Assembly: GCF_024707525.1 (NCBI RefSeq)
Contig: NZ_CP062231.1
Location: 558,001-622,000 of the forward strand
Origin: Rhizobium sp. TH2
GTDB taxonomy: Bacteria; Pseudomonadota; Alphaproteobacteria; Rhizobiales; Rhizobiaceae
Length of the DNA: 64,000 bases
Direction: 5' to 3'
The notes under the pieces were generated by a model. That model saw nothing but the letters and a program-made list of their open reading frames with translations, was not told where the DNA came from and did no database searches. The position numbers and the translations under genes were made by a program. Every line of letters starts with the position of its first letter. Positions within the stretch are counted from its first letter, which is position 1. Shown one piece after another: positions 41,737 to 57,786 of this stretch.

Positions 41737-44700
41737 TCAAGCGGCCTTGGCCAACCTCAGTATCTCATCGAACACCACCCGGCGGGAAACCGCCGGCGTC
41801 AGGTTATGGTCGGTGTCCGGCAGCATGGTCAGCTTCACATTGCCATAGCCGCTGAGGCCGGAACCCTGCTCGCCGAAATGCAGGTGCAGGTCGTCCAGTC
41901 CCACATCGCCTTCGCTATAGATCAGGCTGACCGGGATCTGCCGCTCCTGGAAGGTCCGGAAGCAGTCTTTCACCTCGCGGTGGATATGGCGGTTGCCCGG
42001 CAGTTGGCGCACCAGCGGCGTCGCCTTCCGCGCCAACCGCTTGGCGATGGCGATGGCGATGTTCCGGCCCGCTGCCGGTATATCGATCTCTCCCGTGAAC
42101 AGGCGCTTCAGCGTTTCGACGCGTGCAAAACGCTGGCCGTAGTCGTCCAGGCTGCGCGGCACGAATTGCAGCCCGGCATCGACCGGACGCTCCGGATCCC
42201 AATAAAGCACGAATGGATTGACCGAGACGACGCCGGTGAGGCGCTGGTCGCGCACGGCGTTGCGCAGGGCCAGATAGCCGCCGCTGCAACGGCCCGATAC
42301 CAGCACCTTGCCGCCAAGCTCTTGCTCCATCAGGTCGAGTGCCGCATCGACATCGCGGTTCTGGGTTGTCGAATAGAGAATCTGCCGTGGTGCCTCGGGC
42401 AATGGCACGCTGTCGCCGACATTGGCGGTGTCGTAGCGGAAGGATGCGATGCCGTGGCGGGCGAGTTCACGCGCGGTGTTGACGCCCGAGCGGCCCCAGC
42501 CGGCGCTGCGGTCATAGGCGGTGGTCAGGATCAATACCGATGCCGCGTCCTGCCGGACCTCGGGCATGCAGAACACCCCATAGAGATGGTCATTGTCGCC
42601 GAACCGCATGAAGCGCTCGCGATAACCATCGCCGGCGAGTTCCGCGGGTAGCAACGCGACATTGGGTGTCCGTATGCCGGTAGCGACAGGATTGACTTGT
42701 CCTAGCCAGCCGATCAGCTTGGCGATCGTCTCCATCGGCATTTTCTGGATCGTCGGATTGGCAACGAGGTCGTCGTAGCCCTCGAACACGTCGAAGACGA
42801 CATGGGCGCCAAGTTCGCGCAAGCCATCGGCAAAGCCGGTGTCCGACATCCGCACCGGACGCTCGAGAACGAGAACCTGGCCGGCCACGGTAGCTTGTGG
42901 CGCCGTGAGGTTGGTCTTGCGGATCGCATCGGCAATCCCGGCGGGCAGCTTGAGGCTGGCGATTGAAACGCCATCATTGTCGCGCTGGTCTTCCCTCAGC
43001 CCCAGTCCCTGATCGACCACTTTCGACCACAGCGATACTTCGCGAAGATAGGCGCGGCCATTGAGAGCCGGTGCCAGCAGGGCGATCGCATCGACGCCGG
43101 AGATTTCTCCGCCGAGACGCTGGGCGAGCATCCCGCCGATGCCCTGGCCGACAAGGATAACCCGCTCGCGGCCGGAGAGACTCTTCAGCCGCTCGGCGGC
43201 TGCGAGCACGGCGGTTTCCCAGGCGCCGATATCGAGATCGCTTTCCGGTCCGCCCGGCGCGTCGCCGGTGCCGGGATAGTCGAAGCGCAGGCTCGGAATG
43301 CCGTTTGCCGCTAAGTGCTCGGAGAGGATGCGGAAGAATTTCCGCGTGCACATTTCCTCGAAGCCCCAGGGCGGCAGCAGAAGAACGGCGGCTTGCCGCG
43401 CTTCGGTATTGTCGTCCTCGGGCGTGAACAGGCCGATAGTGCCGTCGAAAGCGACCGGCATGGCTGCGGTGCGACCCGCGCCCTCGGCCGGATCGCCTGT
43501 CGTCTGCAAGGATTGATCTGCCCCCAAGCCGCTCATTCCAACGTCTGTTCCCGCCCCCGGTGTAACGAAGAGAATAGAACGTTTGAAGAGTGGTTGTAAG
43601 CGCCCCGGCAAAGAACCGGAAATATTGATTAATACACGCCCGTCTTCCACCGGAACTGCGCGGAGTATCCGCAATGCCAACGGATAGACCAGGAATCCCG
43701 CGCCGATTGCGAAAATTATACCGACAGGTCCGGGGATCAGATATTCGGCAAGCATCGCCGCGCCCGCCACCATGAGCGACGCACCGGACACCTTTGCCAG
43801 CGTAACGTAGAGCCCGCTCAGGCTGCGGCCGAAACCGGTGGCGCGGATCATGATCAGGCACATGACGGTAAAGCCGGCGAGCCGCGCGAACGCAGCACCT
43901 TCGCCGCCGAACCAGGGAACAGCCAACAGGCAGCCGATGACGATGATGCCGCCTCCAGCGATGCCCGCGTAGAGGCGCGTTCTGGTCCGGTCCATCGAGA
44001 ACAGATACTGCGTCAGGATCTGCATCAGCACGAAGGCGGGCGCGGAGAGCGCCAGCAATGCCACGATATTGCCGGCCGGCCGGAAGGCTTCGCCGAACAC
44101 GGCCGAGACCAGGCCCGTCGAAATCGCGGCAAGCCCGAAGCTCATCGGCAGCGTGATGTAGGACAGCGCGCGGATGACGCCGGCGAACACTTCCGGCGAC
44201 ACCGTGGCATCGTCGGTGCTGTGCCTACGCTGTGAATAGTATGGCAGCAGGCTGCCCGTCAGTTGCACGGGCAATTGCAGTGCCAGGTTGGCCAGAGACA
44301 GGCTGACGGCATAGAAGCCCACCACTTGCACCGACCAGAACTGCTGCAGGAAGAGGATCTCGATGCGGTTGAGGAGGATGGAATCCACGAGATACTGCGC
44401 CGAGAGCACGGTCGAAGACGACACAAGGAAGGCGGTCGGCACGTCGCAGCGGTCGCGCCGCTGGAAGATGATCGTCAGCGTATAGGCAAACAGCACCACC
44501 TGGCCGATGGCATAGCCGACCAACGCACCCTCGACGCCATAGATCACCGCGCCGGCCAGCACCGAGACGAGTTGCAGCACGGATGCGACGGTGGTGAGCT
44601 TCAGGAACGTGTCGAGCCGCTGTTCGCCGATCAGGTAATTCTTGGTGAAGGCGCCGACCGACTGGATGATGAAGAGAATTCCCGTCACCAGCGCGATGGA

Positions 44701-45060
44701 AGGCGCAGTCTCCGCCCAGTGCAGTTCCTCCGATGCGACGAAGACCAGCCAGTAGAGGACGGCAAGGATGACGGTCGAAATCAGCGTCGGCGTAACCAGG
44801 AAAGCCGCAAAGCCCCGCCTGCGGGCCGCATCATAACCCTGCGCGCGCAGCTGCGGCAGCATCCGGAGCAGGATGACGCCGGTGCCGAGTTCGGCGACCA
44901 GCGCGCCAGTCGTGGCAAGCCAGAGCGAGAAAGCGATGATGCCGTTCGCCTCGGGTCCGAGCAGGCGCGCGGCGATGATCGAGCAGGCGAAGCCTGTCAG
45001 CAGCAACAGCATGCCCGCCGCAGCATTGAGAGCCGAATTTGCAACGATTCCCTTGGCCAT
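41737..45060 (-). CDS. Fusion of Wzx-type polysaccharide flippase with two alpha/beta-hydrolase domains (1107 aa)
   Basis: Residues about 1-450 are a polytopic oligosaccharide flippase (LLLLTGFACSIIAARLLGPE; about 12-14 helices; YLFSMDRTRTRLYAG). Two cytoplasmic alpha/beta-hydrolase domains follow. The first (about 545-800, VLLLPPWGFEEMCTRKFFR, FDYPGTGDA) has GQGIGG near residue 638 where the nucleophile Ser should be, so it looks inactive. The second (about 825-1107, FRYDTANVGDS) has SGRCSGGYLA near 922 with Cys as nucleophile, an acid in SEGDVGL and His in DTDHNLT. The usual flippase is about 450 residues, so this is a real fusion in one continuous frame. It may modify or monitor the lipid-linked glycan during transport. 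Confidence 0.85.
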   Translation of the reverse strand: MAKGIVANSALNAAAGMLLLLTGFACSIIAARLLGPEANGIIAFSLWLATTGALVAELGTGVILLRMLPQLRAQGYDAARRRGFAAFLVTPTLISTVILAVLYWLVFVASEELHWAETAPSIALVTGILFIIQSVGAFTKNYLIGEQRLDTFLKLTTVASVLQLVSVLAGAVIYGVEGALVGYAIGQVVLFAYTLTIIFQRRDRCDVPTAFLVSSSTVLSAQYLVDSILLNRIEILFLQQFWSVQVVGFYAVSLSLANLALQLPVQLTGSLLPYYSQRRHSTDDATVSPEVFAGVIRALSYITLPMSFGLAAISTGLVSAVFGEAFRPAGNIVALLALSAPAFVLMQILTQYLFSMDRTRTRLYAGIAGGGIIVIGCLLAVPWFGGEGAAFARLAGFTVMCLIMIRATGFGRSLSGLYVTLAKVSGASLMVAGAAMLAEYLIPGPVGIIFAIGAGFLVYPLALRILRAVPVEDGRVLINISGSLPGRLQPLFKRSILFVTPGAGTDVGMSGLGADQSLQTTGDPAEGAGRTAAMPVAFDGTIGLFTPEDDNTEARQAAVLLLPPWGFEEMCTRKFFRILSEHLAANGIPSLRFDYPGTGDAPGGPESDLDIGAWETAVLAAAERLKSLSGRERVILVGQGIGGMLAQRLGGEISGVDAIALLAPALNGRAYLREVSLWSKVVDQGLGLREDQRDNDGVSIASLKLPAGIADAIRKTNLTAPQATVAGQVLVLERPVRMSDTGFADGLRELGAHVVFDVFEGYDDLVANPTIQKMPMETIAKLIGWLGQVNPVATGIRTPNVALLPAELAGDGYRERFMRFGDNDHLYGVFCMPEVRQDAASVLILTTAYDRSAGWGRSGVNTARELARHGIASFRYDTANVGDSVPLPEAPRQILYSTTQNRDVDAALDLMEQELGGKVLVSGRCSGGYLALRNAVRDQRLTGVVSVNPFVLYWDPERPVDAGLQFVPRSLDDYGQRFARVETLKRLFTGEIDIPAAGRNIAIAIAKRLARKATPLVRQLPGNRHIHREVKDCFRTFQERQIPVSLIYSEGDVGLDDLHLHFGEQGSGLSGYGNVKLTMLPDTDHNLTPAVSRRVVFDEILRLAKAA

Positions 45061-45075: not shown

Positions 45076-46221
45076 CTATGCGCTCAGCCGTGTGGCATGC
45101 GGGGATGATGGCGTTGCGCTGTCGAGATCGAACAGGCGGGCGGTCTTCTCCTCCCAGCTCAACACACTCGACGTATCGATCGCCGAGCGGTCGAATTCAG
45201 CGGCGGCCTTGAACGCGGCGTGGATGCTGCTGGCATCGCCAGGTTCGTATGCCAGCACATGCGCCCGGCCGGCGGCAGCGAAGCGCGGTGCGACAATCGG
45301 CAGGCGGCAATAGCTGTACTGGATCATCTTGAGACTCGACTGGCTAAGATAGTCGGCATCCTCTTTCGGCCGATAGGGCGCGATGCCGATATCGGCGAAC
45401 TTGATATAGGCCGCCACTTCATCGAATGGCCGTTCGCCATGGGCGATGACATTCGGCAGGGTGTCCTCGAGTCGCGCCAGTCGCCCGAACAGATGGAAGG
45501 TCCAATCGGGATAGCTTGTAGCCAGCGTGCGGATCACATCGGCATCAAACAGCATGTCGCCGACGCTGACGGCATTCTTCCCACGGACGTAGGGACTTCC
45601 AGTGATCTGGTCGAAGATAGCGCGTGAAATTCCATGCGGCAGATGGATCGTCGGCGCGCCCTCTGGGATGTCGCCACGAATGGCATCGGCCATGACATGC
45701 ACGAGATCCACCGCGCCGATGCTCTCCCTCAACACCGCATGCGCGGCCGGATGCGCCCCGATCGTCGAGAGCCGGTCGGCGGCGTGGTAGATGATCCTTG
45801 CCTTCGGCGCGAGACGGCGAATCTCGGGAATGGTCAGGATAGAGATGCCGCTTTCCACCAGGATATGCGTGTATTCCGACAGTTCCGCCTTCACGGCGCG
45901 GGGAATGTGGCGGCCATAGACCTTGGCGAGCGGCGTCGAGACCATGTCGAGCAACGGCTTGCCAAGGCTGATCGGATGCACCGTACTGACCCAGATGAAC
46001 TCTCCGAACAGCGGCGTGATTTCGGTCCATTGGTTGAGTGCGCGGGTCTTGGCGAAAGCCCAACGCTCGTCCGACATCAGCCGGCTGACCAGGCTTAGCC
46101 GCATGCTGAGGAAATCGACCCGGATGCCACGTGCATTCAGCGCCTCGGCCATGAAATGCAGATCGACCTTGCGCGGCTGGGTGGCGAAATGCTGGCCGGT
46201 GACGATAAGAACGCGCGTCAT
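45076..46221 (-). CDS. GumK-like glycosyltransferase (381 aa)
   Basis: A GT-B fold enzyme: VLIVTGQHFATQPRKVDLHFMAEAL at the N-terminus, HVMADAIRGDIPEGAPTIHLPHG in the middle and the C-terminal DADYLSQSSLKMIQYSYCRLPIVAP donor-binding region, typical of GumK-type glucuronosyltransferases of xanthan-like polymers (GT70). The ATG at 46221 overlaps the preceding stop (ATGA), indicating coupled translation; a longer frame to 46284 is unlikely. It probably adds glucuronate or a related sugar to the lipid-linked repeat unit. Confidence 0.8.
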   Translation of the reverse strand: MTRVLIVTGQHFATQPRKVDLHFMAEALNARGIRVDFLSMRLSLVSRLMSDERWAFAKTRALNQWTEITPLFGEFIWVSTVHPISLGKPLLDMVSTPLAKVYGRHIPRAVKAELSEYTHILVESGISILTIPEIRRLAPKARIIYHAADRLSTIGAHPAAHAVLRESIGAVDLVHVMADAIRGDIPEGAPTIHLPHGISRAIFDQITGSPYVRGKNAVSVGDMLFDADVIRTLATSYPDWTFHLFGRLARLEDTLPNVIAHGERPFDEVAAYIKFADIGIAPYRPKEDADYLSQSSLKMIQYSYCRLPIVAPRFAAAGRAHVLAYEPGDASSIHAAFKAAAEFDRSAIDTSSVLSWEEKTARLFDLDSATPSSPHATRLSA

Positions 46222-47390
46222 CGCCGCGCTCCCTGAAGTATAGCGTCGTAGAGGGCGAAATAGGAAGCTGCAGCACCGGACCAAGAATAGGCATCGGTTG
46301 CCGCCATCAATCGGTCACGCAGCGTGGGATCGTCCAACAACGACTGATAGGCCTCCCTGATCGTGTCCGCGGCACTCTTGGCATCGGTGAAGCCGCAAAG
46401 ACGGATGTCGGAATGGCGCGCGGCAAGTGTGGCATAGGCGGTATTGGCTTCCAATACCGGAACAAGGCCGGCGCTCATCGTCTCGATTGCCACGAGGCCG
46501 AAGCCTTCATATTCGGATGCCGAGGCGAAGAACGAGCTTTTCGACATGGCGGAGCGGATGCCCGCATTGTCCAACCCGGCGCGCACGAACACATTGCCGG
46601 ACAGGCCGTGGTCCGCAATGATCATTTCGAGATCAAATACCGAGAGGTCGGATGGCACGCCGAGAATATCGAGATGCCAGTTGGGATCGGCTGCGCAGAG
46701 CATGGCCATGGTCGCAATCAGCCGTTCCAGCCGCTTGTTGACCGAGAAACGGCCGAGCGTGACTATCCGCTTGCGCGGCGATGTCGAGGACGCATTGGCG
46801 AATTTGGATGTGTCGGTGCCGTTCTCGATCAGTTGCGTCCGGGAAGGCGCAATCTTCTTGAACGTGTCCTGGTCCGACCGGCTGCAGCCGACGACATCCA
46901 CATACTGGCTGGCGGAAAAGCGCGTGAGCGTCTGGAACCAGACGTTCTTGATGCCTGCGAACTTCCTCGTATGAAAGAAGCCGCCATGCGTGGTGATGAT
47001 CATCGGCTTGCGGTGGATCAGGCGGGTGAGCGCCAGGAAGTCGTAGAAGAAATCGATCGCATGGACATGCACGATATCGGCATCGCCGATATGGGCCAGG
47101 ACCGATGGTGCCACCGGATAGCGGCTCGAACCACGCCACGGAATGCGGACCACCTCGATGCCGTCGATGATCTCGCGATCGGCGAGCGGCAGGCTCGGAT
47201 CGGAGAACAGCGAATTGAGCGTGACGACCCGGACACGGAAGCCATGGCCGATCGATTGCATGCAAAGATTGAAGACCACATCTTCCAATCCGCCGCGATT
47301 GGGCAGGAATTGGCGCACGACATGCACGATCAGCGGTCGCGCAACCGCTTCCGCCCCCGTTTTGAGGCTCTCGTGATCGATAGGCTTCAT
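46218..47390 (-). CDS. GT4-family glycosyltransferase (390 aa)
   Basis: A retaining GT-B glycosyltransferase: the acceptor half has VRQFLPNRGGLEDVVFNL and VHVHAIDFFYDFLALTRL, and the donor half has IVTLGRFSVNKRLERLI and the EX7E motif in ASEYEGFGLVAIETMSAGLVPV. The ATG at 47390 is likely (a GTG at 47396 is possible). It is the first gene of the leftward glycosyltransferase-flippase operon and is divergent from the wzc-like gene. Confidence 0.88.
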   Translation of the reverse strand: MKPIDHESLKTGAEAVARPLIVHVVRQFLPNRGGLEDVVFNLCMQSIGHGFRVRVVTLNSLFSDPSLPLADREIIDGIEVVRIPWRGSSRYPVAPSVLAHIGDADIVHVHAIDFFYDFLALTRLIHRKPMIITTHGGFFHTRKFAGIKNVWFQTLTRFSASQYVDVVGCSRSDQDTFKKIAPSRTQLIENGTDTSKFANASSTSPRKRIVTLGRFSVNKRLERLIATMAMLCAADPNWHLDILGVPSDLSVFDLEMIIADHGLSGNVFVRAGLDNAGIRSAMSKSSFFASASEYEGFGLVAIETMSAGLVPVLEANTAYATLAARHSDIRLCGFTDAKSAADTIREAYQSLLDDPTLRDRLMAATDAYSWSGAAASYFALYDAILQGARR

Positions 47391-47654
47391 GTCCACGGCA
47401 TCCGTCGCGTTTTGAACCAGTTGGCCCCTGATTTAGTGCCTGAACCCTGCTTCAACGGTTAACAAAGGGCTGAAACGGGGGCTTTTTTGCCGCCAATGGT
47501 AAACACGGATGAAACCCGATGCTTCGAAATCCCGCCATTCTGGTTACCCCCCGTTAACCATATTTTGCGAGATTGAACCTCGTCATCTTCGCGCCGCAAC
47601 AGGCGTGGCAATTTTGCTGATCGACGACACGGCTTGCGCGCCCCGAAGGCATCA
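47391..47654. promoter_or_regulatory. Divergent promoter region of the polysaccharide locus
   Basis: These 264 bp separate the leftward glycosyltransferase operon from the rightward wzc/wzy operon and must contain both promoters. A TTAACCAT at 47554-47561 resembles a CtrA half-site. No convincing sigma-70 pair was identified by eye. Short antisense frames here lack protein character. Confidence 0.4.
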
Positions 47655-49658
47655 ATGGGTATCGACATTTTTCAATTGCCGGGCATTCTCTTGAGGCGCT
47701 GGCTCTATGTCGTGGTGACGGCCGTTATCTGTGCCGGACTCGCCGCTGCCTATGTCACCGTGCGCAAGCCGGTCTATCTCGCAACGACCGATATCCTCAT
47801 CGATCCGCAAGGCCTTGCGGCGAGCCCCGCTGACCCCAACCAGAACAATGTCGCCGCGTCGCAGGACACGGGAATCCTCGAAAGCCAGCTCTTCGTCGTG
47901 CAATCGCATGAAGTGCTGAACCAGGTCGTCGACAAGCTCAAGCTTCGCGACGATCGCTTCCTCAATCCCGCCGGCATAGCCGACAAGGAAGTGGCAATGA
48001 ACGCCACGGTCGGCGCATTGCAGAAGAACATGACCGTCGAGCGCGAAGGCCAGTCCTTCGTCATGACGCTTACGGTGAAGCACCGCGATATGGCCAAAGC
48101 GGCGGAGATCGCCAACGCGATCGCCTCGATCTATCTCAAGCGGCTGCATGAAGCCCGTTCGGATGCCTCCACGCGTGCCAGCGGCGCCTTCGAGCTTCAG
48201 GCAAAGGACCTGGCCGAAAAGCTCCGCAAGGCTGAGGAAGAACTCGAAACCTTCAAGGGCAAGAACAATCTGATCTCCACCGGCCAGCAGGGCCTGGTCA
48301 TCGACCAGCAGGTCGAAGGCGTCAACAAGCAGCTTATCGCCGCGCGCGCCGATCTCGAACTCAAGCGCGCCAACTACAATCAGGTCAAGACGCTGACGAT
48401 CGGCTCGATCGAGTCCGGCGGCATTCCCGAAGCGCTGGCCTCGACCTCGCTCAGCGGCATGCGCGGCCAGTATGCCCAGCTTGCCGCCCGCGCCGACCAG
48501 CTTTCGACCACGCTCGGCACCAATCATCCGCAAATGAAGGCCGTGCGGTCGCAGGTCGAGGGCATGCGCGATGTGATGGAACAGGAACTTGCTCGCATCC
48601 GCGGCTCGATGAAGGGCGCGCTCGAACGCGCCGAGGCCAATACCGCGGCGCTCCAGCGCCGTCTCGATACACTGACCACGTCGAGCCTCGATACATCCGA
48701 AGCCGGCATCAAGGCGCGTGCACTGCAGTCCGAGGTCGATGCTTTGCGGGCGCTCTACAAGACATTCCTCACGCGGGCGAGCGAACTCGGCCAGCGTGAC
48801 ACGGTCAACATCAACAATTCGCGCGTCATCTCCAAGGCGGTCGCGTCAGGCGGTTCCTCGCTGGTGACCAAGATCATCATCGTGATTGCCGGCGGGCTCT
48901 TCGGCATAGCGCTCGGCAGCGGCCTTGCCGTGGGCGTGGAAATCCTGTCACGGATGTTCGGCGGCCGTGAGGATATCTACGAGGACGAAGAGGAATTCGC
49001 CGAGCCATCAGCGCCCACGCGCGCGGCGCCCGCGAAGCTTCCCGTCATCGCCTATATTCCGGCCATCCGACAGAAACCGCGCGCCTTTCAACTCTCTGGA
49101 CGGAAGTTCATCGAGAGTGATGAGCGCGAATGGGAGCGCAAGGCCCAGATCGGCGTCTCGCGCACCGTCGATAGCCTGCTTCAGCTTTCGCGCCCCGGGC
49201 AACCCTCGACCGTGCTTTTCCTGTCGCCGGACAATGACAATCCCGGCAGCCGCATCGTGACCGATGTCGCCGGTGCGCTCCATCGTCTCGACAAGGAAGT
49301 GCTCTATTCCGATGGCGACGGCCGCGATGGCAGCGCCCATGTCAGTGCCAGCGAGGCGCCGCTCGCGGACCTGCTCAAGTTCACCCGGCTGGCCTTGGAA
49401 AGTGCCCGGCGCCCGAAGGCGACCACGCCGACCTTCTCCAATTTTGCTGGCCACAAGCGCAAGGCCGATTTCGTCATCATCGACGCCAGTGGCGAGGAAG
49501 CCCGCCATCACCTGGCCGAACTGCTCGAAAAGGCCAATGCCATCCTGCTCGTCGGCGATGAGAACGACAACGGCCGCCGCATGGAAGAACTGGTGAATTC
49601 GCTCGCGCCCTGGCGCGATCGCATGCTGGGAACCGTCATGTTCGGCCGGGTGGCGTAA
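47655..49658 (+). CDS. Polysaccharide chain-length/export protein, Wzc/GumC-like without P-loop (667 aa)
   Basis: The first membrane helix (RRWLYVVVTAVICAGLAAAYV) is followed by a Wzz domain (about 30-120), a long coiled coil (about 160-400) and a second membrane helix (about 415-440, IIIVIAGGLFGIALGSGLAV). The cytoplasmic tail (about 480-667) resembles a BY-kinase domain (STVLFLSPDNDNPGSRIVTD), but the Walker A GxxxxGK(S/T) is not present and no Tyr-rich tail is seen. It should set chain length and export with a Wza-type pore, but not act as a kinase. The ATG at 47655 follows GAAGG. Confidence 0.85.
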   Translation: MGIDIFQLPGILLRRWLYVVVTAVICAGLAAAYVTVRKPVYLATTDILIDPQGLAASPADPNQNNVAASQDTGILESQLFVVQSHEVLNQVVDKLKLRDDRFLNPAGIADKEVAMNATVGALQKNMTVEREGQSFVMTLTVKHRDMAKAAEIANAIASIYLKRLHEARSDASTRASGAFELQAKDLAEKLRKAEEELETFKGKNNLISTGQQGLVIDQQVEGVNKQLIAARADLELKRANYNQVKTLTIGSIESGGIPEALASTSLSGMRGQYAQLAARADQLSTTLGTNHPQMKAVRSQVEGMRDVMEQELARIRGSMKGALERAEANTAALQRRLDTLTTSSLDTSEAGIKARALQSEVDALRALYKTFLTRASELGQRDTVNINNSRVISKAVASGGSSLVTKIIIVIAGGLFGIALGSGLAVGVEILSRMFGGREDIYEDEEEFAEPSAPTRAAPAKLPVIAYIPAIRQKPRAFQLSGRKFIESDEREWERKAQIGVSRTVDSLLQLSRPGQPSTVLFLSPDNDNPGSRIVTDVAGALHRLDKEVLYSDGDGRDGSAHVSASEAPLADLLKFTRLALESARRPKATTPTFSNFAGHKRKADFVIIDASGEEARHHLAELLEKANAILLVGDENDNGRRMEELVNSLAPWRDRMLGTVMFGRVA

Positions 49659-49673
49659 GGCTGGAGGTCACCG

Positions 49674-50990
49674 ATGGCGGCCGCCGCAACTGCAAACATT
49701 CTGCCACCGCTCGACGAAGCAAGCCCGCTCGCGGGCTTGCTGCGGTTCGGCGCCATCGCCTCCGTCATGGGCGGTCTGGCCTTCAATCTGTTCCTCTGCT
49801 TCGTCAACACCCGCATCATGCCGATGCGCGACAGCCATGTCATGCTGATGGAGATGGCGATCATCGGCACGGCGCTACTGGTCGCGATGGATCGCAGGGC
49901 AGGGCTCTATCTCTTCCTCGGCATCTTCGTCAGCTACATGCTGATGCTTTTCACGCTGCGCGGCGCCAGCGACCTCAAGGCCGTGCGCGACATCCTCGTT
50001 CCGGTGATCTTCTACGCCATGGGCTCGCGCCTGCGCGACCTGAAGCTGGCGGACAGCCTCGCGGTCTGGTCGGCGATCATGGTGTTGTTCTTCGCCTTCT
50101 TCGAATATTTCCTGCTCGACCTCTACCTCGAATGGTTCAACGTGCTCGGCTATTACATCTCCAAGGGCACGGTGACGCTGACCGAGAGCTACGGCGCGAC
50201 CAAGGGCCTGTTCATCTCGGGCAGCCGGCCGGAACCACGCACCATCCTGTCCTTCCTGGGCCAGCACCGCGTGTCGTCGGTCTTCCTCGAGCCGGTGTCG
50301 ATGGGCAATTTCGGCGTGATCATCTTCTCATGGGCGATGTTCCGGCGCGGCTGGAGTGGGCGATGGTTCCTGTTCGCCGCGGCGTTGACCATGGTCGTGC
50401 TGGCGGATGCCCGCTTCGGCCTGTTCACCTGCATCCTGATCGTTCTGCTCGCGCCATTCTTCAGGGTGATCCCCCGCACATTCTGGCTGGTCACGCCCTT
50501 CCTGCTGCTGGCGCTGATCGCCGCCTATGGCTTTGCCTCGGGCACCAGTGGTGGACCCAATGACCTCTCCGGCCGCATTGCCGTCACCGCCCATATCCTG
50601 ACAGAGCTTTCGCTTCCGGTGGTGCTGGGTGTCGAGGCAACGGCACAGTTCACGGCCGATTCCGGGCTCGCCTACACGCTGACGAAATTCGGGCTGTTCG
50701 GGTTCATTGCGCTCTGGGCAGCACTCGTCTTCATGCCCTTCCGTAATGCGCGGGCATGGGACTTCCATTCCATGATGATCGTCTATCTGCTGCTCATCAT
50801 GGTGATCTCGAACTCGTTCTTCTCGATCAAGACGGGCGCGTTGATGTGGTTCATGGTCGGCACCGTGTCAGCCGTCGACATCCCCGCGATCAAATCGATC
50901 TGGTCGAAGCTATTGGAGCGGGCTCAATCGAGGGCAGGGCAGGCGGTGCCCTCCGCCGAGAGATCGCGTAACGCGGGCAGTAGGGCCTGA
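49674..50990 (+). CDS. Wzy-like polysaccharide polymerase, O-antigen ligase family topology (438 aa)
   Basis: About 10-12 membrane helices with one large periplasmic loop (VTLTESYGATKGLFISGSR, then PEPRTILSFLGQHRVSSVFL), as in Wzy polymerases and GumE-like proteins. It would join repeat units in the periplasm. It starts 15 bp after the wzc-like stop, in the same operon. Its 3' end overlaps the convergent GH5 gene by 67 bp, and the C-terminal 25 residues are charged and probably dispensable. Confidence 0.8.
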   Translation: MAAAATANILPPLDEASPLAGLLRFGAIASVMGGLAFNLFLCFVNTRIMPMRDSHVMLMEMAIIGTALLVAMDRRAGLYLFLGIFVSYMLMLFTLRGASDLKAVRDILVPVIFYAMGSRLRDLKLADSLAVWSAIMVLFFAFFEYFLLDLYLEWFNVLGYYISKGTVTLTESYGATKGLFISGSRPEPRTILSFLGQHRVSSVFLEPVSMGNFGVIIFSWAMFRRGWSGRWFLFAAALTMVVLADARFGLFTCILIVLLAPFFRVIPRTFWLVTPFLLLALIAAYGFASGTSGGPNDLSGRIAVTAHILTELSLPVVLGVEATAQFTADSGLAYTLTKFGLFGFIALWAALVFMPFRNARAWDFHSMMIVYLLLIMVISNSFFSIKTGALMWFMVGTVSAVDIPAIKSIWSKLLERAQSRAGQAVPSAERSRNAGSRA

Positions 50991-51970
50991 AGCTGTGGCC
51001 GGTCGCCCTTTGTGGTCGGCTGGATATTGAGCGGTTCCTCTTCGCTCCACCAGTCGCCCGCAACCCAATAGGTCCAGCCAGCCCAGACGTCTCTGTTTTC
51101 CTCCATGACGTCGACCATGGCCTTCAGGCCGGCGACGCAGGCCTTGTCGGTCGATGCGCCGAACTCTCCGAGCATGCCGCGAAAGCCATTCGATTTCATC
51201 CAGGCCGTCACGTTCCTGAGCGCCTGCTCGGCATCTCCAGCGCGTGAGCAATTGGGCTTGGTGCCCGAGAAATCACCGTCCAGATACTGATGGAATTCGA
51301 AGATGAAGTGGTTGGCTGGATCCGAGAACTTCGCCATCGCCACGCCATTCGGCTCGCCATCGATCGGAGCCATCCAGCTATGTGCGCCGCTCCAGGCCGT
51401 GCCCGGGACAAGGATGAGATTGTTGGCCTTGGCCTCCTCGCGGATGGCATGCGTGGCGGCGTTCGCGGCTTCCAGCCACTGGGCGATCGGCTGGCGGTTG
51501 GGCTCGTTCATCAGGCCGAATATGACATGGTCGTCATTGGCATAGTAACGCGCGAGCTTTGCCCAGAAGTCGGCGAAAGCGGCGATGGGAACGTCCTTCG
51601 ATCCGATGATCTTTTCATCATAGCGCCCGTAGTTGTGTGGATCGAGGATCGTCCTCATGCCGCGCGCACGGATCAGCTCGACCGATTCCATCAGGCGCTG
51701 CAACTCGGCTTCGTCGAGTTCGCCCATCAACTGGGGCTGCAGCCGTTCCCACTTGAAAGGCAGGCGTATGGTGTTGAAACCCTTGTCGGCGAAATAGGAC
51801 AGCGTGTCGGTCGATGGCCAGGTATAGTCTTTGTTGACCGTGCCGCCGCGCACGCCGAATTCGGCGCCCGAAATGTTGATGCCGCGAAAACAGGTCGCAG
51901 CCGATGCTTCCGCTGTTGCTGCAAGGCCTATCATGAGGGAGAGCAGGCCGCGTAATGCGATATGGGTCAA
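50924..51970 (-). CDS. Secreted GH5-family glycosidase (endoglucanase-like, 348 aa)
   Basis: The signal peptide MTHIALRGLLSLMIGLAATA (cleavage near ASA) precedes a GH5 barrel: FRGINISGAEFGV, GFNTIRLPFKWERLQP, ILDPHNYGRY, the acid/base Glu in VIFGLMNEPNRQP and the nucleophile Glu in GMLGEFGAST, plus WAGWTYWVAGDWW. The start is a TTG at 51970 with a strong GAGGAG that overlaps the preceding stop, so translation is coupled. It probably trims or cuts the polysaccharide made by the neighbouring genes. It is the last gene of the carrier-protein operon. Confidence 0.88.
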   Translation of the reverse strand: MTHIALRGLLSLMIGLAATAEASAATCFRGINISGAEFGVRGGTVNKDYTWPSTDTLSYFADKGFNTIRLPFKWERLQPQLMGELDEAELQRLMESVELIRARGMRTILDPHNYGRYDEKIIGSKDVPIAAFADFWAKLARYYANDDHVIFGLMNEPNRQPIAQWLEAANAATHAIREEAKANNLILVPGTAWSGAHSWMAPIDGEPNGVAMAKFSDPANHFIFEFHQYLDGDFSGTKPNCSRAGDAEQALRNVTAWMKSNGFRGMLGEFGASTDKACVAGLKAMVDVMEENRDVWAGWTYWVAGDWWSEEEPLNIQPTTKGDRPQLQALLPALRDLSAEGTACPALD

Positions 51971-51980
51971 CGCAGTCTCC

Positions 51981-54443
51981 TCACAGCCGGATCACATTGC
52001 TCGAACCAAGCTGGCGGATCTCGCCGGTCGGCCGTTCGTCACCCTCGCCGTGGCGCGCAAATCTCACCAGCTTGGGCTTGCCCGGCGCCAGGTGGAACCA
52101 GTTGTCGTCGGGAATGAAGCCCTCGAAACCGAGATTGACCGATTGCGCCAGCCGGTCGGTCGAGATCGCAACGAACGGACCGCTCGCATCGCTCCCCAGT
52201 TCGGTCGTGAGATTGGCCGCATGCATGGCCGCCATTCGGCCGCGCGGAAAATGAAACGCGCTGGCGATCTCGTCGTCGCCATCCATCAGCCGTGCGACCG
52301 TCACATCATGCGACGGCGGGCCGAAACGGAAGGCATAGGCGGTGTCGAAGAAGGCGCCGAACAGATCGGTGGCGGCGATACTTTGACCGCCCCGCGCTGA
52401 AACCAGGATGTCCCGCGTGCCGGACACGGCCGGCTGTATCCCGTCACGTAAGGCCGAGACCTCCAGCCGCAAGCTCAAGTCGCCGGCCGTCTCATTGATC
52501 ACATGCACATAAAGCCCGTTGGTGCCTTCATCGGAGAACACCACCTGCACCGGACGGAATGCCCGTCGCATGCCGTGCCACACCGGCTTCGGCAGTCCTG
52601 TCGAGTCGATCACGCCCCAGCCCGCACCGGGCAGCAGATCCTGCAAAGTCCAGACGAGCGCGCCGGCACAGGACGAGCCGGGCCGCCGCCATTCGGCATA
52701 GGTCGCTTCCGCCACTTCGGCGGTCACTGCGCGCGAGAAATCGAGATAACGTACCGGGTCCTCGCGGCGCAATCGGGCCGGATCGAGACCGTAGAGATCC
52801 TGCAGGTAATGGTCGCGGATGTCCTCGAAATCCCAGGATGCGCCACGGTCGCGCGGCACGCGGGCCTTCCAGCGCGGATCATGCACCGCCGGCACCGGCA
52901 GATGCGCGTCGAGCGTGGCCTGTTCCGGCACATGGGCGAAGGCGAGGCTCTCGGCGGCGAAACGCACATTGGCGCGGCGTGCGTCATCGAGCGACCGGCA
53001 ATAGGCGCCGACGCCGTAGTAATGCGTGATGCCCTCGTTGGGCGAGAACGGCATGGCGCCGCCGAAGGGCGAGTTCGGCACGTAGATCACATCGGGCCGG
53101 TAGGCTTCGTACACGGCTGGCAGCAGTTCCTCGGTCAACGGCCCCGACCAGGATTTCTGCGGCATGCCCATCATCGCAGCCTGCTGGTAGATTTCCGAGC
53201 CGCCGCAGAGAACGGTCAGCGATGGCGAACCTTGCAGCGATTTCAGCAGATCCTCCGCCTCGCGCTTCACTAGGTCGGCGAATTCCGGGTCGGCGACCGG
53301 ATAGTCGAAATTGGCGAACATGAAGTCCTGCCACACCATGATCCCGAGTTCGTCGCAGACCTCAAAGAACTCACGGCTCTCGTAGGCCATAGTGCCGCCG
53401 ATGCGGATCATGTTCATGCCGGCCTCGCGGGCAAGCTTGAGCCACGGCTCATAATCGGAGCGCCCGCCGGGCAGACGGACGATATCCGCAGTGGTCCAGA
53501 CGGCGCCCCTAGAGAAAACCGGCATGGCATTGATCTCGATGCCAAAACCCTTGCCGTCCGCACCCTGGTCGAGCGAGACATTGCGGAACCCGACCTTGCC
53601 CAGCGGATGGGCGGCGCCATCTGCGATCAGCGAGACCGGATAGAGATGCGGTTCGCCATGCGTGTGCGGCCACCAAGGTTGGACGTCGGTCAGCGTGAGA
53701 TGGGCATGCAGTCCGCCCTCGGCGGAGATCATCACGGGTGCTTGTTGCGTTCCGCAGGCGATCCTGAGATCCGTCGCCCGCCCGGAAAAGCGGAACGACA
53801 GGTCCAGCACGCCGTGACCCTCGGCATTCAGCGATGCGCCCATCCTGAGCTCATCGACCTCGATGCCTCCCTGGCGAACGAGATGGATCGGCCGCCAAGG
53901 CCCGATGGCGTCAATCTCGGGGCACCAGCCCGGCATGTGGCCGAGCAGCGTGGCGCGTACCATTCGCATGCCGGGCGGCGTGATCATCTGCGGCCGCCAT
54001 TTGGCGCGCGGACCCGACGCCTTGAGATGCGGATTGAGCGCCCGGAAGGCGATGGCAAGATTGTCTTCGCCCCGGAGCGTCACTGGAATGTCGTTCGAAA
54101 CGAACTGGCTGCGGCTTTCGAGAATGCGCTCGCTATTGAGGAAGACCTCGGCGATCACGGCGAGGCCATCGAATACCAGCCGGTACGGACCGGGCGTCTC
54201 GCCGGTCAGGTCGAGGAAATACCAGAAGTCGCGATCGGCGAGCGGCAGGGGCTGTGTCGGGTCAAACCGTCCGGCTGTCTCCAGCGCCTCGGCCACGGTT
54301 CCGGGCACGGCCGCTGCGAGGCGTCTGCCAGTTGCGGGAATATCGGCCGGGGCAGCATATTGCCCGGCATCCGAGACCAGAAGCGACCAGCCCGCATCAA
54401 GCCTGCGCCTGGTCTTCGTCCTTGGCCCCGCCAACGATGTCAT
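51981..54443 (-). CDS. GH2-family beta-mannosidase-like glycosidase (820 aa)
   Basis: An N-terminal sugar-binding beta-sandwich (about 75-230) and immunoglobulin-like domain are followed by a TIM barrel with GMNMIRIGGTMAYESREFFEVCDELGIMVWQDFMFANFDYP, the acid/base region LTVLCGGSEIYQQ and the nucleophile region VRFAAESLAFAHVPE. These fit the mannosidase branch of GH2. The acid/base motif reads GSE, where many relatives have GNNE. No signal peptide is seen, so action is cytoplasmic. It starts 20 bp after the DUF1839 stop; the ATG at 54443 is preferred over a longer frame. Confidence 0.85.
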   Translation of the reverse strand: MTSLAGPRTKTRRRLDAGWSLLVSDAGQYAAPADIPATGRRLAAAVPGTVAEALETAGRFDPTQPLPLADRDFWYFLDLTGETPGPYRLVFDGLAVIAEVFLNSERILESRSQFVSNDIPVTLRGEDNLAIAFRALNPHLKASGPRAKWRPQMITPPGMRMVRATLLGHMPGWCPEIDAIGPWRPIHLVRQGGIEVDELRMGASLNAEGHGVLDLSFRFSGRATDLRIACGTQQAPVMISAEGGLHAHLTLTDVQPWWPHTHGEPHLYPVSLIADGAAHPLGKVGFRNVSLDQGADGKGFGIEINAMPVFSRGAVWTTADIVRLPGGRSDYEPWLKLAREAGMNMIRIGGTMAYESREFFEVCDELGIMVWQDFMFANFDYPVADPEFADLVKREAEDLLKSLQGSPSLTVLCGGSEIYQQAAMMGMPQKSWSGPLTEELLPAVYEAYRPDVIYVPNSPFGGAMPFSPNEGITHYYGVGAYCRSLDDARRANVRFAAESLAFAHVPEQATLDAHLPVPAVHDPRWKARVPRDRGASWDFEDIRDHYLQDLYGLDPARLRREDPVRYLDFSRAVTAEVAEATYAEWRRPGSSCAGALVWTLQDLLPGAGWGVIDSTGLPKPVWHGMRRAFRPVQVVFSDEGTNGLYVHVINETAGDLSLRLEVSALRDGIQPAVSGTRDILVSARGGQSIAATDLFGAFFDTAYAFRFGPPSHDVTVARLMDGDDEIASAFHFPRGRMAAMHAANLTTELGSDASGPFVAISTDRLAQSVNLGFEGFIPDDNWFHLAPGKPKLVRFARHGEGDERPTGEIRQLGSSNVIRL

Positions 54444-54463
54444 CGCACCCCATTCCCGGCAAA

Positions 54464-55432
54464 TCAGTCGATCTTGACCTTGACGGCCTCGGAGAGTTCG
54501 TCCCACGCTTCGATTGCGGGATCAAGGGCCGATACGAGAGCATCGAACTTTCTGCGGGTCACGGCGCGCGCAAGCTGGAACTGCACGCTCTTTGCCGCCT
54601 CGGCGATCTTCAGCGACGCTTCGATCGCATCACTGAATTCGCCGAAGTCCGACATCCATCTGAAATGCGTCGCCGCAAGCTCGAAATTGGCGCCGAGTTG
54701 CCGCAACGTGTTGAACGCATATTTATGAAAGAAGCCGAAGGGCCGGTCGGCGATCAGGCTGACCTGTTCGGGCAGAACACGCGAAAACTCCGCGATCGGG
54801 TTTCGCGACGGCATGCGCAGAATATGCCGCGTCAGCAATTCACGCGCCCGCTGCCGGATCAGCATGTCGCTCGGCAGATGATCGGGAAACTTGACGAACT
54901 CCGTATAGGGCAGAAAGGGCTGCGAACCCTCGGGATAGAGCCGGCCGAACAGACCGTCGTAATCCTCGCCGGACAGCCGCCAGAAGCCGCCATTGTGGAA
55001 ATAGTCGATTTCCTTGTCCTTCTCCGACAGGCGGTTGATCGCCACCGTCGTCTTGCCGTGCTCGGTGCGGTAGGCCACGCCTTGCGTATCCGGCATGAAA
55101 TAGGAATCCATCTCCAGCAGGCACAACCGGCCGCGCGCGATCTGCTGAGCGACGTGGTCCTCGACCTTGTCGAACACCGCAAGCTCAGTCACGCGGATAC
55201 CGTAGAGCGTTTCGAGATCCTCGAGCGGCACCTTGAAGAAGGTGAACTGGTCGCCTTCGAAATCCTGCGTCAGCGTGAAGCCGAGCATCGCCTCGGGCGG
55301 CAGCCGGATCGTGTTGAGAATCTCGATCCAGAGATCGACATAGCAATTGGTCTCCGGCCAGATCCGGTCAAGGCTGTGCAACTCGTGCGGCTCGTAGCGG
55401 CCGGGATCGAGGAACGGAAAGACGGCGGTCAT
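54464..55432 (-). CDS. DUF1839 family protein (322 aa)
   Basis: The protein has TAVFPFLDPGRYEPHELHSL, then WPETNCYVDLWIEILN, QDFEGDQFTFFKVPLEDLETLYGI, LCLLEMDSYFMPDTQGVAYR, YFHNGGFWRLSGEDYDGLF and a helical C-terminal part. This family occurs next to amino acid:[carrier protein] ligases. A conserved Cys in ETNCYVDL and the DxxYxPD motif resemble a substrate-binding pocket. It may transfer or release the carrier-bound aminoacyl group; no activity is known to me. The ATG at 55432 lies 7 nt after the ligase stop. Confidence 0.8.
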   Translation of the reverse strand: MTAVFPFLDPGRYEPHELHSLDRIWPETNCYVDLWIEILNTIRLPPEAMLGFTLTQDFEGDQFTFFKVPLEDLETLYGIRVTELAVFDKVEDHVAQQIARGRLCLLEMDSYFMPDTQGVAYRTEHGKTTVAINRLSEKDKEIDYFHNGGFWRLSGEDYDGLFGRLYPEGSQPFLPYTEFVKFPDHLPSDMLIRQRARELLTRHILRMPSRNPIAEFSRVLPEQVSLIADRPFGFFHKYAFNTLRQLGANFELAATHFRWMSDFGEFSDAIEASLKIAEAAKSVQFQLARAVTRRKFDALVSALDPAIEAWDELSEAVKVKID

Positions 55433-55439
55433 AACAGGC

Positions 55440-56348
55440 TTACCCCCAGAGAGCGGTCCGGACAGCGTCTGGCCACACCTTAACATCAAGCCCGTGATGC
55501 GCAAAGAGCGCCAGCGCGATGCGTTCCAGGCCGAAGCCGACGCAGGCGGTATGGGCGACGCTGCCATCCTCGAGGTTGAGGCCCCATTTTGTACCGAAGG
55601 CATCCTGGTGGTAGTTGAAGCTCATGCAGGCGGTCGGGTTGGCATTGGAATTGACCGGGATCAGCAGTTCGAACTTCAGGTTCTGGTCGCGTTGGTTGTT
55701 GGCAAGCAGCCGGCCGGCGCGGCCGAAGAACGGATCGTTGGCGATATCGATCTCGACCTTGAGGCCAAGTTCTTCCATCATCTGCACGCCGCGATCCATC
55801 CACTTCTGGCGGAACTCGGTGACATGGTGCTCGGTGCCCATGCAGACATATTCGCGCATGCGGAACATCTGCTGGCGGGTCGGCTCGCGCGACGGCTCGT
55901 GGCGGAAGCAATAGGATTGCAGGTCGTAGAGACCGCCGGTCATCGCGATCGGGCCGCGCTTGGCGACTGTCGGATAGAGTGGATAGCAGGCGGCGGGCGT
56001 CAGCGCGATGTTGGTCGCTTTCTGCTCCTTGGTCCAGTCCTTGCCTTCTTCCATGCAGGAGAGCAGGCCCATATGGTCGTGGTCGTTGCCACAGAACGAA
56101 TGCACGGTGCCCGCCAGTTGCGGGAAGCTCTTCATGTAGCCGCTCTTTTCGAAGTAGCTCATCGCCATGCCGGGCGGAAAGCGGATGGCTTCCGCGCCAT
56201 CGGCGCCGCCGAACCTGTCGATCATGCGCTCGAAAGCCGCGATGACATCCTCGAACTGGCCAGAGCGGCCATAGAGGCCATCGACACCCGTTTCGATGAG
56301 AAGACCGGAGTCGAAAAGCCGGTCGAGGAGAGAAACCTGCATATCCAT
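55440..56348 (-). CDS. Amino acid:[carrier protein] ligase, seryl-tRNA-synthetase-like (302 aa)
   Basis: This is a truncated class II synthetase core without a tRNA-binding domain, of the type described for Bradyrhizobium Bll0957. Those enzymes activate a small amino acid (Gly or Ala) and load it on the phosphopantetheine of a carrier protein. Motif 2 is recognisable in [23 protein letters not shown] and motif 3 in [17 protein letters not shown]. Candidate zinc ligands are Cys in [10 protein letters not shown], Glu in [12 protein letters not shown] and Cys in HTACVGFG. The carrier protein is encoded two genes upstream. Confidence 0.9.
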
Positions 56349-56353
56349 AATCT

Positions 56354-57535
56354 TTACCCCAGAAGGCTGGTGTCCTGTTTGTGGATCAGGAGCATGGTGG
56401 ACGTGTTGCCGAGAATTCGGTCGTTGGAAATCATCAGCTGTGCGGAATGCGCGTCACGCAGGTGCCGGCCCAGGCTGAACGGCGTGCCGTTCTTGTAGCC
56501 CATGATGCCGCAGATCAGCATGGCGTGGTTGATGATGATAAGGATCGTCTCCGAGGAAGCGATCTTCACATTGTTCATGGCGACCGCGAAGGCGACGGAC
56601 GACAGTTTTTCCTCGTCTTCCCTGGCGATCTCATAAGACTTGATCGCAGCCACGACGTTGGACTTCATCATCTGCAAGAGGTTGGAGACCTCCGCGAGAC
56701 GAAGCGCGCCTGGAGGCACGACGCCAGGCGATTTCTTGGCCGCACCGCGCACGAAGCTCTGCGCACGGCCGACGGCGTCAACCGCGATGCCGTACCAGAC
56801 GCCGCTCCACAGGATGTGGCTGTTGGCGAGCATCGATTGCGCCGCGATTTCGGCGAAGGGCTTGGAGAAGATCTGTTCGGCCGGCGCTTCTCCGGTGAAC
56901 ATGAAGCCCTCGGAGCAGGTGCCGCGCATGCCCAGCGTATCCCAGTCCTGCGTCTTGACGAGCCGGTACTGGTCCCTGGTGAACACGGTCATCACCTGGT
57001 CGGTGGAGACGGCGTCCTTGTGGGCGCGGGACGTAATCAGGATCGTATCGGCATACTGGCCGTAGGAGATGACGGTCGCATCCTTGGTCAGGCGGCAAAT
57101 GCCGTCCTCGACCTCGATGGCGCAGATCGAATTGCGCAGGTTGCCGCCGATGCCGCCTTCGGTGGTCGCGGACGCGATCAGCAGCTGTTCGGAGACGATG
57201 CGTCGCATGAAGCCGCGATGCCATTCGGTGTGGATCCCGTGCTCCACCAGGCTCGAAAGCTTGATGTGATGCATGGCGAACACCATGGCCGACGAGGCGC
57301 AAGCCTGCGCGATGATCGAGCAGAGTTCGGCGATCTCGCCGGTGCGCGCACCTTCGCCGCCGAGCTCGGCGGGGATCTGGATCGAGAGAAGGCGCTCGGC
57401 CTTCATCGCATCGACCGCTTCAGCGGGGAAGCGGCTCTTCTGGTCGACCTGATCGGCATAGGCGCGGGCGACGGCCGCCACCCGGGCGGCCCGTTCCGTC
57501 AGGCTGCCAATGGCGAGATTGACGGGGATGTTCAT
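56354..57535 (-). CDS. Acyl-CoA dehydrogenase-like flavoprotein (393 aa)
   Basis: An acyl-CoA dehydrogenase fold: N-terminal helical part ([23 protein letters not shown]), middle beta domain ([40 protein letters not shown]) and C-terminal helical part. The GMRGT/CS segment is the usual FAD-contacting site. A catalytic Glu is not obvious to me. In this operon the substrate is probably an acyl or aminoacyl group on the carrier protein rather than CoA. The ATG at 57535 overlaps the carrier stop by one base (TGATG), so translation is coupled. Confidence 0.85.
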
Positions 57536-57786
57536 CACGCGACCTTTCTGTCGTCCACGATGGAAGCGACGGTGCGGACGATGGCTTCGATGCTCTGGAA
57601 CGACTTGCGGTTCAACAGGCTGTCGGGAAATTCGATGTCGAAATTCTCTTCGAGCGCCAGCATCAGCTGTACGGAAGCGAAGGACGAGAGGCCAGCGGCA
57701 TAAAGGTCGGCGCCATCGGCGAGATCGGCGACATCGACCGGCAGACCGGCATGCTTCTTGAGCAGTTCACGAATGGTGTTGTTCAT
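57535..57786 (-). CDS. Aminoacyl carrier protein (83 aa)
   Basis: A small acyl-carrier-type protein. The phosphopantetheine site is the Ser in DLYAAGLSSFASVQLMLALE, and helices flank it (MNNTIRELLKKHAGLP, FDIEFPDSLLNRKSFQSIEAIV). The ATG at 57786 gives a normal carrier length; the longer frame is unlikely. It is the first gene of the six-gene operon and the expected acceptor for the ligase. Confidence 0.9.
   Translation of the reverse strand: MNNTIRELLKKHAGLPVDVADLADGADLYAAGLSSFASVQLMLALEENFDIEFPDSLLNRKSFQSIEAIVRTVASIVDDRKVA

Follow-up and report, generated by a model that had tools for sequence, protein, structure and literature searches.

We analysed a 64,000-nucleotide stretch of DNA from Rhizobium sp. 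TH2 (the window). Six open reading frames at positions 50924-57786 all lie in the same direction on the minus strand, and EPS-type genes face them on the plus strand, as an earlier note on this DNA had described. The features are as follows.

57535..57786, minus strand: carrier protein (CP), 83 aa, PP-binding (PF00550; NF005480, 122 bits)
56354..57535, minus strand: ACAD-fold flavoprotein, probably monooxygenase-like (PF02771, PF00441), with its start overlapping the CP stop
55440..56348, minus strand: amino acid:[carrier protein] ligase (NF005479, 506.8 bits)
54464..55432, minus strand: DUF1839, predicted carrier-protein-dependent amide synthase with a CcbD/CtaG/AziU3-like fold (PF08893, 426 bits)
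51981..54443, minus strand: GH2 beta-mannosidase-like enzyme (PF22666)
50924..51970, minus strand: GH5 Cel5A-like endoglucanase, the final gene (PF00150, 198 bits, 2.6e-58)
49674..50990, plus strand: 438-aa protein without a Pfam match, probable Wzy from its position adjoining Wzz
47634..49658, plus strand: Wzz/EPS chain-length protein (PF02706, PF13807; TIGR01005 below cut-off)
46218..47396, minus strand: GT4 glycosyltransferase (PF00534, PF13439)
45076..46284, minus strand: GumK-like glycosyltransferase (PF22059 GumK_N, 186 bits)
41737..45060, minus strand: Wzx-type flippase fused to tandem alpha/beta-hydrolases, 1107 aa (PF13440 with PF12146/PF12697)

The junctions read from the sequence were those given earlier: a 1-base stop-start overlap (TGATG), then gaps of 5, 7, 20, and 10 bases. 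A promoter scan found none, with 1.5 expected. The Wzx-hydrolase fusion at 41737-45060 had not been mentioned in the earlier note.

The order CP, flavoprotein, ligase, DUF1839, GH2 was kept in 47 out of the 48 other DUF1839 genomes of the order Rhizobiales, and the sole exception was a contig end. The five-gene block was also found on plasmids of Azospirillum and Mycetohabitans. These genes, including the ACAD-like flavoprotein, are one conserved unit. An accidental operon was ruled out by this conservation of order together with a GH2 subfamily that is bound to DUF1839. Upstream genes for EF-P, a lysyl-tRNA synthetase paralog, and an aminomutase were considered as partners and treated as Rhizobiaceae synteny (67-68 out of 134 loci; 4 out of 54 in the survey).

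The earlier note had asked for a survey of whether the glycosidases are conserved beside the ligase, and the answer was different for the two enzymes. GH2 is kept in the block, and its subfamily was found only beside DUF1839 (48 out of the 297 genomes of the order), with block members scoring more than 1100 bits and the next-best GH2 239 bits. The acid/base and nucleophile glutamates, E417 and E498, were invariant in 28 out of 28 sequences. Some of the copies on Rhizobium plasmids have a broken or truncated GH2 or have lost it, a point against the reading given below. The GH2 profile A2 matched the solved beta-mannosidases 5n6u (297.6 bits) and 2vjx (270.8 bits). Beta-mannosidases of GH2 carry an asparagine directly before the acid/base glutamate, and the motif is NNE in 2vjx. 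Among 127 GH2 sequences, it was GSE in 119 and GNE in one, and seven were not resolved by the pattern. Since this asparagine is missing from most of them, we filed the block enzyme as GH2-like and not as a mannosidase. On hydrophobicity, no signal peptide or export segment was seen in the window GH2.

GH5, on the other hand, did not hold up as a part of the module. It was within about 10 kb in only 9 out of 48 loci: in four of these it lay upstream, adjoining a glycosyltransferase, and in the remaining five on the opposite strand. As a core partner it was rejected for this reason and because it follows GH2 directly on the block strand only in L079 and L083 among 80 named loci. Thus, GH5 is lineage-specific and non-core. 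The window GH5 matched Cel5A (PDB 9p41) at 416.5 bits, and its N-terminal hydrophobic segment is a putative export segment, judged by hydrophobicity.

The ligase score lies above the curated equivalog cut-off of NF005479 (357 bits). Its dedicated carrier is the first gene of its own block, and S35, the presumed PPant site, was present in 49 out of 49 CPs. Loading of Gly/Ala by such ligases is listed in a table of a 2022 review, which in its passage on these ligases still calls the biological role of their aminoacyl carrier proteins unknown (PMC9437257). The earlier note likened the ligase to Bll0957 (PDB 3mey). This is right as to the ligase family, and relatives of Bll0957 also adjoin an ACAD-like protein, but the neighbourhood is different. 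We call the Bll0957-type ligase neighbourhoods, which lack DUF1839, type B loci, and the counterpart set type A loci (n = 134). No DUF1839 or GH2 was found in the roughly 10 kb fetched on each side of type B ligases, and their carrier, where found (14 out of 16 loci), is on the opposite strand. Neighbours scanned from 5 out of the 16 loci gave no common substitute transferase: the ligase adjoins Abhydrolase_3 in L176, Ldh_2 in L170, a Cys/Met-type PLP enzyme in L169, and a 291-aa protein without a Pfam match in L168, while the neighbour scanned in L175 is an AMP-ligase. Caution is therefore needed, since the structurally characterised Bll0957 stems from a different gene neighbourhood.

The flavoprotein was scored at what we take to be the MCAD-type and IVD-type catalytic glutamate positions. 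The first is Ile and the second Ser/Ala in 12 out of 12 aligned flavoproteins of types A and B, so by alignment it has neither classical acyl-CoA dehydrogenase base. Of 15 same-genome comparison rows, seven had the MCAD-type Glu, one Asp, and two the IVD-type Glu, and five had neither or aligned poorly. Ile-x-Asn-Asp-Arg is present in 142 out of 144 flavoproteins. In the fold ranking, monooxygenases (a class D flavin monooxygenase/nitrososynthase was compared) were tied with dehydrogenases. Both replaced bases and the Ile-x-Asn-Asp-Arg motif argue against a true alpha,beta-dehydrogenase, which would leave a dehydroaminoacyl-carrier, and we consider it rather unlikely. The flavoprotein is probably monooxygenase-like, with the tied ranking as a point against. 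Its action on the aminoacyl group, proposed in the earlier note, is plausible.

DUF1839 was modelled as a papain-like domain with a helical C-terminal domain. CcbD, CtaG, and AziU3 matched the model over its full length, including the helical C-terminal part, and in both fold lists they stood well above proteases. C30, T128, T129, and H146 were invariant in 28 out of 28 and in 55 out of 55 sequences, and C30 heads a core helix (residues 30-41) in the predicted model. By sequence, DUF1839 gave nothing meaningful against the PDB (only vinculin, E 0.067 or worse). We predict that DUF1839 is a CcbD-type carrier-protein-dependent amide synthase, and the predicted fold thus backs the transferase role suggested earlier. 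At 12-16% identity, the fold likeness to CcbD/LmbD is no proof of reaction.

On balance, we lean towards the five-gene block being a cytoplasmic module for aminoacylation of an amino sugar. What was counted or modelled in its support is block conservation, the near-obligate GH2, catalytic residues, the predicted fold, and polysaccharide-gene statistics; we infer the chemistry of each step, the acceptor, where in the cell the module works, and what GH2 does. The ligase would activate a small amino acid, by analogy Gly/Ala, and load it on the CP phosphopantetheine. The flavoprotein would then oxidise the carrier-bound aminoacyl group, with monooxygenation likelier than alpha,beta-dehydrogenation. 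The catalytic Cys of DUF1839 would take the acyl group and pass it to a sugar amino group, giving an amide, like CcbD in celesticetin synthesis. GH2, whose two catalytic glutamates are intact, is probably a beta-glycosidase of the cytosol and may trim or proofread the sugar partner. Here and in many other genomes, a sugar in the repeat unit of the adjoining Wzx/Wzy-type polysaccharide probably serves as acceptor and is modified before export.

Polysaccharide genes were found within 15 kb of the block in 26 out of 49 genomes, against at most 2.7 expected. In 27 out of 134 type A loci, the neighbouring alpha/beta-hydrolase and a Wzx flippase form a single fused protein; the window fusion is 55% identical to the one in L031. 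Relatives of the 438-aa probable Wzy adjoin Wzz in some other loci. A point against our reading is that type B loci, which lack DUF1839, also had Wzz nearby in 4 out of 15, with 0.9 expected. The EPS link drawn in the earlier note is statistically strong, but it depends on lineage: Wzz, Wzy_C, or Bac_transf was nearby in none of the genomes of families f27 (0/7), f42 (0/3), and f34 (0/2), and in one out of six in f1. Families f27 and f42 thus keep the block without these genes within 15 kb. In f27, the neighbours that were scanned encode a dehydratase of the ILVD/EDD type, a helicase-like protein, and a chemoreceptor, none of which is a polysaccharide gene product. The product of the block might instead be a small aminoacyl-amino-sugar metabolite of the lincosamide or mycothiol kind, either secreted or kept inside the cell, with GH2 releasing or processing a glycosidic intermediate and the polysaccharide genes merely frequent neighbours. 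Besides these families, the nearest DUF1839 folds, which are antibiotic biosynthesis enzymes, and the missing export segment of the window GH2 favour such a product. The 26 genomes and the 27 flippase fusions speak against it, and we regard it as a minority possibility.

CtaG-type enzymes couple acyl groups with amines, and DUF1839 might similarly use an amine other than a sugar (a diamine, lipid, or protein) as acceptor of the aminoacyl group while GH2 acts separately, but this is improbable given the near-obligate glycosidase and the glycosyltransferases frequently nearby. DUF1839 might also strip off acyl or aminoacyl groups as a hydrolase, be it a protease, a thioesterase, or a deacylase. 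This would suit its papain-like superfamily and its conserved residues Cys, Thr, and His (PMC10318531), but the full-length CcbD/CtaG/AziU3 match, clear of proteases, makes it very improbable.

Aminoacylation of a surface sugar is not an original hypothesis, since it was already printed in 2010. A note added in proof (Biol Direct 2010;5:48; PMC2922099) predicted a SerRS-paralog pathway from the same kinds of genes (ACP, redox enzyme, the conserved protein Atu2574, glycosidase, liposaccharide genes), with an amino acid ligated to an amino group on a sugar of the cell surface. Its passage on this pathway does not give counts, the fold of Atu2574, the split from Bll0957-type loci, or the flippase-hydrolase fusion. 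New here are the CcbD-type assignment, the near-obligate GH2, the fusion in the locus, and that split. The analysis names a likely transferase chemistry (CcbD-type), a key residue (C30), an acceptor class (amino sugar), and a near-obligate glycosidase partner, and it marks the genomes in which a polysaccharide is the probable acceptor. The structural match of DUF1839 to an antibiotic-making enzyme makes the aminoacyl-transfer idea directly testable.

Among known systems, CcbD/LmbD share with DUF1839 the predicted full-length fold, a carrier-bound amino acid, and the proposed amino-sugar acceptor. The lincosamide carrier is fed by a stand-alone A-domain and not by an aaRS-derived ligase as here, and the passages on that pathway do not name a GH2 (PMC12945683, PMC4351081). 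The CcbD triad is Cys-His-Glu, whereas that of DUF1839 has been published, in the passage on this family, as a permuted C-T/S-H (PMC10318531). BtrH of butirosin synthesis is likewise a papain-like ACP:aminoglycoside acyltransferase that transfers an acyl group from an ACP to an amino sugar (PMC10318531), but it belongs to another papain-like family. BtrH was absent from the DUF1839 fold matches, which does not prove a difference.

In DltA/DltC D-alanylation, a carrier-bound amino acid is used for an envelope polymer. Dlt has another ligase, an ester product, and a membrane acyltransferase, so the analogy with our block is only a logical one. The DltC model NF003464 gave a hit below its cut-off. 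Tentatively, the block may represent a widespread proteobacterial system in which Wzx/Wzy repeat units receive an amide-linked oxidised amino acid in the cytoplasm. Its enzymes would be a ligase derived from a tRNA synthetase, an oxygenase with the ACAD fold but without the catalytic base, and a CcbD-type amide synthase; a GH2 specific for amino sugars would proofread, and the hydrolase fused to the flippase would act in export or trimming. If so, rhizobia, Azospirillum, and Burkholderiaceae would have in common a polymer modification that is the amide-linked counterpart of Dlt alanylation, and symbiosis plasmids would carry copies of the system in their nif regions.

Six open reading frames (ORFs) in the window encode a carrier protein, an acyl-CoA dehydrogenase (ACAD)-like flavoprotein, an amino acid:[carrier protein] ligase (NF005479), DUF1839, GH2, and GH5. 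Their strand, order, and junctions were confirmed by ORF calls and sequence reading, and profile matches bore out the families assigned in the earlier note. The carrier protein stop and the flavoprotein start have one base in common (TGATG), and the remaining gaps are 5, 7, 20, and 10 bases. One further gene precedes the operon:

Window 57932-59314, minus strand: TonB-like gene in the same orientation as the operon, 145 bases from the carrier gene

A promoter scan of this 145-base gap found no sigma-70-like promoter. GH5 and a facing 438-aa ORF share 67 bases at their 3' ends (window 50924-50990).

The operon is real and conserved. A profile search found DUF1839 (PF08893) in 49 of 297 Rhizobiales genomes, and flanks of up to about 10 kb on either side of the gene were fetched from the 48 genomes other than that of the window. 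The five genes from carrier protein to GH2 lie in this order on one strand in 47 of these 48, while in the 48th (L078) the contig stops after DUF1839. Two genes separate DUF1839 and GH2 in L059 and 687 bases in L050, and DUF1839 was read as two pieces in genome G210. Across 46 loci, the five proteins average 50-66% pairwise identity (lowest pair 33%), and their distance matrices correlated at 0.71-0.89, computed without a neutral control gene. Ligase, DUF1839, and GH2 sequence was found in 80 of 80 named loci, which were chosen as the best 80 of 580 by closeness to the window ligase, come mostly from Rhizobiaceae, and are not independent evidence. Among them, GH2 is fragmented in L130 and L152 and truncated by a contig end in L109 and L117, and L154 begins after the carrier gene. 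The block is also complete in L182-L187, all six of the further DUF1839-containing genomes taken from the phylum sample, and on Azospirillum, Mycetohabitans, and Phyllobacterium plasmids.

In L185 (15262-16194, minus strand), a second DUF1839 gene in reverse orientation closely follows the block on its downstream side. In many Rhizobiaceae, EF-P, a lysyl-tRNA synthetase paralog, and a lysine-aminomutase-like radical SAM gene are just upstream (L128:6269-8367, L034:15361-15927). On two plasmids from nodule isolates, Rhizobium gallicum pRGM101a (L225) and R. acidisoli pRapFH23a (L227), the block directly follows nif genes, fdxB, and an exopolysaccharide production repressor gene.

The earlier note had described an operon joining glycosidases to the carrier, ligase, and DUF1839 genes, and for GH2 the survey of Rhizobiales showed a near-obligate pairing. 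A profile built from the block GH2 scored above 1100 bits in 47 genomes, and one more had the gene split over two contigs. All these 48 of 297 genomes fall within the 49 with DUF1839, GH2 adjoining DUF1839, and the best GH2 elsewhere in the order reached 239 bits. The plasmid search matched 61 records, of which 51 carry the block GH2 (43-60% identity), and the records listed after these fall to 25-30%. Since DUF1839 was found in 59 plasmid records, some of them lack GH2. Among the opened plasmid loci, GH2 is in pieces in L227, is a remnant in L228, and was not found in L229. Given its specificity to the block and these losses on plasmids, GH2 is the usual fifth member, which can be lost from mobile copies. 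Some Rhizobium copies with GH2 broken, truncated, or missing (L130, L152, L227, L228, L229) retain ligase and DUF1839; in L228, ACAD is broken as well.

GH2 is related to beta-mannosidase (5n6u, 297.6 bits) and retains both Glu residues. We did not file it as a mannosidase, because Ser precedes the acid/base residue in 119 of 127 sequences (Asn in 1, unresolved in 7). In related enzymes this position contacts the C2 substituent, which points to a 2-amino or N-acylated sugar as a possible substrate. The N-terminal hydrophobicity of the window GH2 was 0.78, with no hydrophobic N-terminus, compared with 2.09 for the window GH5. GH2 relatives reach values as high as 2.06, inside the range seen for GH5 (1.96-2.54), and so we infer, rather than assign, a cytosolic location for GH2.

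GH5, which resembles endoglucanase Cel5A (9p41, 416.5 bits), did not hold up as a partner of the module. The fetched range contains it in 9 of 48 loci: in four it lies upstream, next to a glycosyltransferase, and in five it is on the other strand. GH5 is incidental to the block.

The ligase occurs in two neighborhoods. Above the cut-off it was found in 64 of 297 Rhizobiales genomes, including all 49 with DUF1839 (type A). The remaining 15 and G641 (type B; L167-L181, L188) have ACAD and ligase but lack DUF1839 and GH2 within the fetched stretch, which spans about 10 kb to either side (less at contig ends). In 14 of these 16 a carrier protein is encoded on the opposite strand, and some have a second ACP, an AMP-ligase, and an SDR nearby. 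The type B ligase of L168 scored 651 bits against the structurally characterized Bll0957 and the window ligase 302; the ligase with solved structures is therefore of type B, unlike that of the window. Of the 398 genomes in the phylum sample, 28 exceeded the cut-off, and 16 of the 28 have DUF1839. Weaker ligase-like matches came from 22 genomes. The 14 fetched loci (L189-L202, 101-175 bits) belong to a divergent ligase-like family that falls short of the NF005479 cut-off, and none had an ACAD, DUF1839, or GH2 match nearby.

Recurrent neighbors of the block were GT4 and GT2 glycosyltransferases, Wzx, Wzy_C, initiating sugar transferases, WecG, polysaccharide deacetylase, and a tandem alpha/beta-hydrolase. 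Of 134 type A loci, 27 carry this hydrolase as a fusion with a Wzx flippase and 63 carry it alone, while none of the 16 type B loci has it; the stand-alone form is the commonest further neighbor. The window has the fusion, together with a GumK-like transferase, GT4, Wzz, and a probable Wzy:

Window 41737-45060, minus strand: Wzx flippase fused to two alpha/beta-hydrolase domains (also in L031:14318-17596)

Wzz, Wzy_C, or Bac_transf were within 15 kb in at least 26 of 49 type A genomes, versus at most 2.7 expected, and, among the matches listed, near 4 of 15 type B genomes, versus 0.9 expected; these expectations treat genomes as independent, though they are not. Among the matches listed, such type A genomes were frequent in families f16 (4/4), f20 (11/12), f41 (8/10), and f50 (1/1), low in f11 (1/4) and f1 (1/6), and absent from f27 (0/7), f34 (0/2), and f42 (0/3). 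Both f34 loci (L062, L066) do have Wzz-like and Wzy-like matches to window proteins. The exopolysaccharide link proposed in the earlier note is statistically strong in type A and varies with lineage. A polysaccharide is likely to be the final acceptor in several lineages.

The earlier note had DUF1839 passing the aminoacyl group to a sugar or surface glycan defined by GH2, GH5, and exopolysaccharide genes. A note added in proof in PMC2922099 links the ligase to an ACP, a redox enzyme, the conserved but uncharacterized protein Atu2574, a glycosidase, and liposaccharide genes. It predicts that Atu2574, which from its description there we read as DUF1839, joins the amino acid through an amide bond to an amino group on a cell-surface sugar, and that the redox enzyme modifies the aminoacyl group, probably by monooxygenation. 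Since the aminoacyl-to-sugar amide was already predicted there, the hypothesis of the earlier note is a rediscovery. A literature search, with the original ligase paper outside its reach, found no experimental test of the prediction, and a passage of a 2022 review (PMC9437257) calls the role of the aminoacyl carrier proteins from these ligases unknown. The block ranks among the better-posed orphan pathways: a ligase derived from tRNA synthetases is predicted to supply a CcbD-type amide synthase, and GH2 is a near-obligate partner.
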